Source: a virus
Strand: one strand, 5' to 3'
Virus record (IMG/VR): IMGVR_UViG_3300035698_000210
Coordinates: 1 to 25,665 of that record
Length of the DNA: 25,665 nucleotides
The notes beneath the pieces were generated by a model. That model ran no database searches. It saw nothing but the letters and a program-made list of their open reading frames with translations, and was not told the origin of the DNA. The position numbers were made by a program, and so were the translations under genes. Position 1 is the stretch's first letter. Every line of letters begins with the position of its first letter. Of this stretch, positions 9,781 through 22,213 are shown in pieces.

Positions 9781-10600
9781 TATTGAATTTTTCTTCTTTG
9801 TTGAGTTCCTAAGTTTTTAAATCCTGTAGCATGGTGGTTCATGCTTTTGAATGTTCTCAATAGTGAGTTCTTCATTGATTCCATCATATCTAGTGAAGGT
9901 TCTTTAGCAGCACTAGTTGCAGCTCCAGCATACCAGTACCAATCACTTTAGATTCTTCATACACAGCTCTCTTTGCTTGACTATTAGCATCATTTCTCCA
10001 AGTCATTCTATCTATCTTCATAGTTATATATGCTTGTACTGCTGACACATAGTTCTCATTATCTGGTATTAAAGGAAATCCTTCATCATCTACTGGGAAA
10101 GCTAAGTATGCTATGCACACTTCTCCTTCTTTAACTGACAATGTAAGATAGTCATCATTAACATCATAGGTAATATCAGATCCAGTTAAGTTACCAAAGA
10201 AGCCTGAAGCAAATTCATTACCAAAACCATCAATATAGAATCCTTCAGACATACCACCTACTTCAGATGTTGCACTTTCTTCAGCACCACAACATTCTCC
10301 CCCAAGTAAATGATGAAAAGAGTCACTAGCATATCTAGCTACACATCCATTAACAGCGATTTGTTCTATTCTATATAGGTTACATGGAAGCTTTGCTTTA
10401 TAGTTCTGTATATCCAAGTTAGGGTTAGCTGAATAACCAGTGACCTTTCTCTTATACTGTGCTGGACAGCTTAATTTGTTTAAAGCCTGTACAGACCATT
10501 CAATAAATCTATCAAATCCAATGTCTAAACTCTGATCATCGTCAGCATAGACTCTGTTTATAATAGTTTTTAAAGATACATATTTTCCATTTAATGCCAT
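9780..10600 (-). CDS. Tail tubular/ring-type protein, frameshifted (273 aa once corrected)
   Basis: Frame 0 runs from the ATG at 10600 through residue Lys218 and then into 18 unlike residues before a TAG at 9892-9890. The -1 frame, open from just after Lys218, reads SDWYWYAGAATSAAKEPSLD and on to a TAA at 9782-9780, adding 55 residues and exactly filling the gap to the next gene with a TAATG overlap like many others here. The WYAGAA plus 'SLDMMESMKNSLLR' style C-terminus is what I expect of the crAss-like tail tubular protein (P22 gp4 / T7 gp11-like ring family). The N-terminal part (SLKTIINRVYADD) also fits. A single missing A in an A-run at 9947-9949 would explain the break. The TCTAAAG context is not a good slippery heptamer, so programmed shifting is less likely than mutation or sequence error. 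Confidence 0.75.
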
Positions 10601-10603
10601 AAT

Positions 10604-11077
10604 CTATAAGTAATAGTCAATTGTGTTGTTAGTTTTTAAAATGAGTGGAAGCCTTTTTTTAAATCCTCTAGCAGGCGCAAACTTATATAGCTTGTGTCCT
10701 GTGTTATTCATGCCATCCTTAGACCAGTATATCTTATATATGTAACCTTTTCTATCTTCATTAAGATGTTTAATTAGAGTTTTCTTCTCTTTAGCTTCTG
10801 GATTAACACTCCATAATGCCATAGTTTCTTTCCAATTAACAGGCAGTTTGTTATAAACTTTAGATAGTTTAAACTTTCTAATACTTAATTTACCAAACCT
10901 TACTGGCAATGCTATTGTAACAGAATTATTTAAGATCCTGTCAGTCATCTTTTGGTTACATTTGTTTATGATATTAGAATAAGTCTTATAATCATGACAC
11001 AGTTCTTTCTCTGTATTCTTTCTATAATACTTATACATATCCTTTGTATGGTAATCTCCTTTAATCTTATCTTTCAT
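10604..11077 (-). CDS. Small basic conserved protein of the crAss-like tail module (157 aa)
   Basis: A Lys/Tyr-rich protein with an N-terminal YKYYRKNT segment, ALPVRFGKLSIRKF near residue 80, and a HLNEDRKGYIYKIYW segment near residues 105-120, ending in DYYL. I recognise this arrangement from an uncharacterised but conserved protein that sits beside ring and tail proteins in crAss-like genomes; I cannot assign a function. The start ATG overlaps the ring gene's stop (TAATG). The stop is TAG, and the codons after it stay in frame with the next gene, whose ATG lies three bases on, so amber readthrough would fuse the two proteins. Confidence 0.75.
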   Translation of the reverse strand: MKDKIKGDYHTKDMYKYYRKNTEKELCHDYKTYSNIINKCNQKMTDRILNNSVTIALPVRFGKLSIRKFKLSKVYNKLPVNWKETMALWSVNPEAKEKKTLIKHLNEDRKGYIYKIYWSKDGMNNTGHKLYKFAPARGFKKRLPLILKTNNTIDYYL

Positions 11078-20758: not shown

Positions 20759-21775
20759 TTAATATATAGCTGAGAAAATTAATTCAGCACAAGACATTGG
20801 GTTTTCAATTACAATAGACTGAGTACACTGACAGTGTAGTTCATATCCATCTACAGCAGAAGCTGATCCAGTTGAGAATGACATATTAGGCCCTAGTGGT
20901 GAAGTAGATCCAGCAATGTGCCACATCAATTCTTTTCTCCCTTTAGGATATACTTTTCTAATATTAGATTTCCCTTTGTGTGTACCAAAGTTTAATATAG
21001 TATATCTATAAGATTCTACAGGACCTCCATCAGGATGTTCTAATCTGTTAGTTACTACATTATCATACTCAGGTAAATGTACTAAAGTAAATTTAACTCC
21101 TTGAGGACCCATGTACTCTCTGTACTGTCCTTGGAATCCTAAATTCTGACCTGAACCTGAAATTCTTTTAGAATCAAGTGGTTGGAATCTAGCAGAGTGA
21201 TTTTCTAAAGCTCTATGGAACTGAATAAATCCTCTTTCACCAGTTAAAGCCACAAAGTGTCTTTGATCTTCTGGTAAGATGTTTATAGATAAGTTAAACA
21301 ATACATCCTCTAACCAATCAATAGTGAAATTAGTATAGTAAAACTTATATGCTGGAGAGATTTGCTGACGCATACCTGCACCTTCTATAATAGGGAATCC
21401 TGATTCACCTTTCATAGTATAAGAGCCATTACTGTTTTTGTTAGATTCTGAATAGATTAAACTTCTATTCTTTTCCTTGTACCACTGACACATGAATTCC
21501 CATTCAGCATACTGAGTCCAGATCTTAGTAGTCTTAGAAGACTTAGGATCTAACATCTCAATAACCAATGGTCTATTGTGCATGTTTCCAGGAATTGTAT
21601 AAGTTTTTCTCAATGTAGAGAAAGCATTACGCATCTTAAAAGAAGAAGTAAAGCTAGTTTCACCTGCTGTTCTAGAAAGAGTTCTTTCTTGAGGAGAGTA
21701 ATCTTTACTTAATTTTCTATTAGCTGTTAATAATGCTACAGGAATAAACGCTGTAGGATCACTTCCACCCATCAT
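20759..21775 (-). CDS. Major capsid protein, C-terminal part (338 codons after the in-frame TAG)
   Basis: This is the larger part of a crAss-type HK97-fold major capsid protein: DPTAFIPVALLTANRKLSKD, TSFTSSFKMRNAFSTLRK, TIPGNM, a TQYAEWEFMCQWYKEKNRSL helix (the E-loop/spine region of this family), GAGMRQQISPAYKFYYTNFT, then TGERGFIQFHRALE and the C-terminal segments. The first ATG pair at 21775 is almost certainly internal sequence: codons VYEVA and the upstream 140-codon part are in the same frame, separated only by TAG. Full length would be 484 residues, the usual size for this family. A GAGG five bases before the ATG could allow restart, but Bacteroidota rely little on such sites. Stop TAA. 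Confidence 0.85.
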   Translation of the reverse strand: MMGGSDPTAFIPVALLTANRKLSKDYSPQERTLSRTAGETSFTSSFKMRNAFSTLRKTYTIPGNMHNRPLVIEMLDPKSSKTTKIWTQYAEWEFMCQWYKEKNRSLIYSESNKNSNGSYTMKGESGFPIIEGAGMRQQISPAYKFYYTNFTIDWLEDVLFNLSINILPEDQRHFVALTGERGFIQFHRALENHSARFQPLDSKRISGSGQNLGFQGQYREYMGPQGVKFTLVHLPEYDNVVTNRLEHPDGGPVESYRYTILNFGTHKGKSNIRKVYPKGRKELMWHIAGSTSPLGPNMSFSTGSASAVDGYELHCQCTQSIVIENPMSCAELIFSAIY

Positions 21776-21790
21776 TGCTACCTCATATAC

Positions 21791-21793
21791 CTA
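21791..21793 (-). other. In-frame TAG codon interrupting the major capsid gene (whole gene 20759-22213)
   Basis: Reading on the minus strand: PSGTN, TAG, VYEVAMMGGSDPTAF, with no change of frame. The 140-codon and 338-codon parts together give the expected full capsid protein. TAG would have to be read as an amino acid (Gln in the known crAss-like code; Trp or Tyr by single-base change are also possible) for a complete product. Confidence 0.9.
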
Positions 21794-22213
21794 GTTTGTT
21801 CCACTTGGATAAGGTTCTGCCATTACACGTACTGCATATTTTCTATCATCAAAGACAAGCTTGTCTGTATAAGCAAAATATTTTTCAGGCATTGTAATTC
21901 TGAAAGGTGTGTTATTAACACCTGGTCTAGTTGTATCTGGAGCAGTATAAGAAATGATTGAAATTGCTTTCTCATCATCACCTTTTAAGTTCCATTCATA
22001 GTCTGCGTCTGAAGGAGTTTCCTCATCACTTCCAAACATTGACAATAGTGTATCCATTCCTGTATAGGAATACATTCCAAACACTCTTGACATTATGTTA
22101 GATAGTAAAGTTGGTTGCTCGCTAAATACAGCACCTAGATGGTTCTCAGTAGTTAGTCCTGACCAGCTCTTTTGTTCATATACTTGTAAAGTATTTATAG
22201 TCTGTTTAGCCAT
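21791..22213 (-). CDS. Major capsid protein, N-terminal part (140 codons before the in-frame TAG)
   Basis: N-terminal arm and start of the capsid fold: QTINTLQVYEQKSW, then LLSNIMSRVFGMYSYTGMDT, an acidic GSDEETPSDADYEW loop, and a beta segment ending FDDRKYAVRVMAEPYPSGTN. A 140-residue protein with this content would lack the core of the fold and could not make a shell on its own. The continuation, in the same frame after TAG, supplies it. The ATG is preceded by a TTTA/AAAT repeat leader 15 bases after the scaffold stop. The gene sits second in the capsid unit, behind the scaffold-like gene. Confidence 0.82.
   Translation of the reverse strand: MAKQTINTLQVYEQKSWSGLTTENHLGAVFSEQPTLLSNIMSRVFGMYSYTGMDTLLSMFGSDEETPSDADYEWNLKGDDEKAISIISYTAPDTTRPGVNNTPFRITMPEKYFAYTDKLVFDDRKYAVRVMAEPYPSGTN

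Follow-up and report, generated by a model that had tools for sequence, protein, structure and literature searches.

Stop codon reassignment does occur in the Crassvirales (PMC7886860, PMC9523058), and 52% of the phages predicted to use code 15, in which TAG is read as Gln, carry a suppressor tRNA (PMC11210395). In the crAss-like phage OFRY01000050, of the beta group, a TAG-suppressor tRNA has been acquired and TAG has begun to accumulate in conserved genes; in the published survey, a code change was inferred from stops in the TerL, MCP and portal genes (PMC7886860). Capsid genes are interrupted by introns in some Crassvirales. Sporadic in-frame stops have also been described in prokaryotic genes, where many were judged to be short-lived and likely deleterious (Belinky et al. 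2021, PMC7918605). In crAss001 gp32 (PDB 7qof), residues 79–180 form an insertion domain (I-domain) in the E-loop (PMC10172136).

Here we analyzed an IMG/VR record over its full length of 25,665 bases (the window); judging by the longest related contigs, it is probably part of a phage genome that spans approximately 95 kb. Its phage genes are encoded on the minus strand, and CTA at positions 21791–21793 of the plus strand is a TAG in the minus-strand frame that runs from 22213 to 20759. This TAG is codon 141; it is preceded by 140 codons (21794–22213) and followed, with no change of frame, by 343 codons and a terminal TAA (20759–21790), so that the read-through product has 484 residues. Re-reading of the sequence thus bore out the position and size of the interrupted capsid gene as given in the initial annotation, which had also correctly stated that no other gene has an internal TAG. 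When same-strand open reading frames of related phages were aligned to the window, the only internal stop found was the one in the capsid gene.

The read-through protein is a Crassvirales major capsid protein of the HK97 fold. Its residues 5–481 match positions 4–493 of the 495 in the phrog_11589 (major head protein) profile with an E-value of 1e-107, and gp32 matches it with an E-value of 3e-70; the window protein shares with both a full-length HK97-type homology that includes the E-loop insertion domain. A tblastn search against GenBank phages gave 140 records, all below 60% identity (best 36%), and those matches whose records were opened were all Crassvirales. Closer relatives are numerous in IMG/VR, where viral contigs match over the full length with 62–81% identity. 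Sequences of the same species were found neither in GenBank phages (megablast), nor in IMG/VR (26-base pattern across the site), nor in GTDB genomes, searches that may leave out records very near the window. Judged by these alignments, the interruption is beyond chance, with one stop in a 484-codon frame that is matched end to end, at about 80%, by relatives.

We aligned the capsid gene to 85 related IMG/VR contigs, 76 of which cover codon 141. All 76 are open at this site, which makes the window the only one with an internal TAG: 52 carry the Trp codon TGG, and the others are divided equally between TAT for Tyr and TTT for Phe (12 each), with no Gln, gap or stop in any of them. The nine nearest relatives (L002–L009 and L011; 78–81% identity) all carry TGG, and no internal stop was found in 38,167 aligned homologous capsid codons. 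Farther away, five Suoliviridae capsid genes from GenBank (open frame, 33–38% identity) have Trp or Tyr at the site, and the residue is Ala or Cys in three genes of the Steigviridae. In a maximum-likelihood tree of 47 proteins, the window groups with 13 other rows in a fully supported set, and since these are all Trp, the ancestral state at codon 141 was, on this tree, almost surely Trp. TAG is one transition (G-to-A on the coding strand) away from TGG; the only codons that lead to TAG by a transition are TGG and CAG, with 78 and 87 sites here.

Two local features were recorded next to the site. Shortly after the TAG, at 21758–21775, there is one codon more in the window (MMGGSD) than in its IMG/VR relatives (LM-SD or LMTG-D), and crAss001 also has GG at this place. 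One related contig, L054, breaks off at position 10423, precisely with the TGG that corresponds to the TAG; it is one of approximately 12 partial contigs, and this coincidence is probably due to chance.

The initial annotation had raised the amber-to-Gln recoding known from part of the Crassvirales, and this is not borne out at a site that is Trp, Tyr or Phe, and never Gln (0/76), in the homologous genes. The window resembles code-15 Crassvirales in viral order, in the codon concerned and in its location in a late structural gene. It differs from them in that it has a single internal TAG in approximately 8,300 codons, with every other gene open, rather than TAGs within many genes, and in that TAG is not avoided as a terminator: apart from the capsid TAG, the listed genes end in TAA (22), TAG (4) or TGA (1). 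One of these, the gene at 11077–10604 on the minus strand, serves as a control: it ends in TAG while its relative L009 ends in TGA after the same C-terminus (IDYYL), and read-through of its TAG would fuse it to the next gene. We rejected recoding to Gln on the grounds of the aligned residue, the solitary TAG and the use of TAG as a terminator, and we read the window, from its codons, as using the standard code.

The search for decoding factors was also negative in the sequences covered. There is no tRNA in the window, and ARAGORN found none in 22 relative loci; in 14 relative records, a single match, 137 bases long, exceeded the cut-off of the Rfam tRNA model, and ARAGORN did not confirm it. 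Neither a suppressor tRNA with a CUA anticodon, in the relatives searched or in the window, which is itself only a genome fragment, nor a gene with an RF-1 domain, in the 14 relative records, was detected; the remainder of the genome lies outside the window. Since amber phages need no detectable suppressor tRNA (PMC11210395), this absence carries little weight on its own, and the aligned residue and the TAG terminators weigh more.

These data bear on the possibility that amber reassignment is incipient, with a suppressor tRNA provided by the rest of the genome or by the host and TAG just appearing, in the capsid gene first. OFRY01000050 offers a precedent, and it resembles the window in having TAG in a conserved gene while the code is otherwise near standard; it carries its TAG-suppressor tRNA, whereas none is seen in the window, a 25.7 kb fragment of a genome that could encode one elsewhere. 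Constraint on the part downstream of the TAG would also fit such a phage. However, the amber code of the order inserts Gln and this site is aromatic, the TAG is a solitary one in a window where four other genes terminate with the same codon, and the relatives searched yielded neither a suppressor tRNA nor a release factor. We thus consider incipient reassignment improbable. Slightly less probable still is the form in which a suppressor, from the rest of the genome or from the host, inserts an aromatic residue instead of Gln at one capsid codon.

The sequence downstream of the stop has not decayed. In comparisons with the nine nearest relatives, pS values ranged from 0.60 to 0.67 and pN values from 0.11 to 0.13 after the TAG, against 0.58–0.77 and 0.15–0.20 before it; the part after the stop is therefore under purifying selection, and is constrained at least as much as the part before. 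Such constraint implies that the stop is recent, is not really present or is efficiently suppressed, and the lack of decay argues for a recent change.

The initial annotation had also suggested regulated amber suppression, in which a leaky TAG would give a 140-residue product and the full-length capsid protein in set proportions. The unchanged frame and the intact downstream sequence are compatible with this mechanism, but no relative has the stop, the RNA that follows it shows no unusually stable structure that could act as a read-through element (z = −0.76), and the 140-residue product would end inside the insertion domain. Capsid protein is needed in large amounts, which counts against it as well. 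With a conserved Trp, Tyr or Phe at the site, TAG in use as a normal terminator and no suppressor tRNA found, regulated read-through is very unlikely.

The fate of the two fragments can be judged by homology. The gp32 alignment places codon 141 within the E-loop insertion domain, so that the 140-residue product, which contains the N-terminal part and the first portion of this domain, would lack its remainder and all that follows, and a product restarted after the TAG would be without both the N-terminal part and a large share of the domain. As the stop lies within this domain, neither fragment should make the HK97 fold. A structure predicted from 24 sequences was poor (mean pLDDT of 45), and in it residues 140–148 look like a beta strand within the one confident block.

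Such a restart had been proposed at the ATG pair at 21770–21775, which would make the gene a split one that encodes two proteins. The pair follows the TAG by 15 bases and, as annotated, has GAGG five bases upstream; yet GGAG, GAGG or AGGA is found upstream of 0/25 window genes, and the GAGG before 21775 is therefore uninformative as a start signal. Motifs of this type precede an ATG 97 times on the gene strand, and the upstream regions of the window genes (17–24930) are 83% A+T. A+T-rich starts that lack a Shine-Dalgarno-like motif are expected for phages of Bacteroidota. In addition, no relative is split at this position or shares the stop, and the break would cut through the I-domain. Unsplit relatives, together with the lack of Shine-Dalgarno-like signals, led us to discard a restart, which we regard as extremely improbable.

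An equally improbable origin is the relic of a self-splicing intron or intein at the site of codon 141. In support of it, besides the introns known from capsid genes of the order, the capsid gene of cr111_1 (NC_055880.1; L066, 430–1345) is interrupted by an insert that contains a homing endonuclease; this insert immediately follows the counterpart of codon 142 and lies one codon away from the equivalent of the window TAG. Nevertheless, nothing is inserted between the two parts of the window gene, which align without gaps around codon 141 to uninterrupted relatives, and this explanation was rejected; the proximity of the cr111_1 insert to the TAG position is probably a coincidence in a conserved stretch.

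We therefore favor, with a probability of about 0.9, a recent nonsense change that altered one base of a conserved aromatic codon and is either an error or a defective allele, under the standard code. The TAG would be an isolated change, most simply from TGG at a conserved Trp codon, in an otherwise intact capsid gene; translation of the gene as written would stop after 140 residues, and functional capsid protein would not be made. Among the four options that the initial annotation had listed, a nonsense mutation and a sequencing or assembly error fit all of the evidence, and regulated suppression and restart are not supported.

The homologous residue, the code usage and the selection are observations made here; the source of the change, error or allele, we infer. 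We give about even odds to a base that is wrong or unrepresentative in the consensus assembled from the metagenome, whether through a sequencing or assembly error or because it stems from a minority strain, and somewhat lower odds to the true presence of a loss-of-function capsid allele in the genomes that were sampled. Among the 75,033 single substitutions that can be made in the window genes, 3,734 (5.0%) create a stop, so that a single erroneous base would, in a contig of this size, produce an internal stop with a chance of approximately 1 in 20, a figure that is based on this substitution count and not on a measured assembly error rate. Finding one isolated nonsense base in a metagenomic contig of 25 kb is thus unsurprising, and scans of many contigs must yield such cases.

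An isolated in-frame TAA was also seen in the capsid gene of Bohxovirus sp. 'endotrachealis' (PV686213.1; L067, 501–1976), at the equivalent of window residue 136, a position that is Gln in several relatives from the Suoliviridae, cr6_1, cr130_1 and cr124_1 among them. That record annotates its capsid gene as separate hypothetical proteins, and its TAA resembles the window TAG in appearing to be either a nonsense change of one base or an error. The window resembles the stops analyzed by Belinky et al. 2021 (PMC7918605) in having an isolated in-frame stop followed by conserved sequence; it differs in that the gene is an essential phage capsid gene, taken from a metagenome, with no second genome that shares the stop.

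If amber suppression did operate at this Trp site, the case would show a code change just as it begins, and with a suppressor that inserts an aromatic residue, synthesis of the capsid would depend on suppression. On the reading that we favor, a lone stop in a marker gene gives little support for reassignment when the gene comes from a metagenomic contig, and it is the aligned residue, together with terminator usage, that separates true reassignment from isolated stops.
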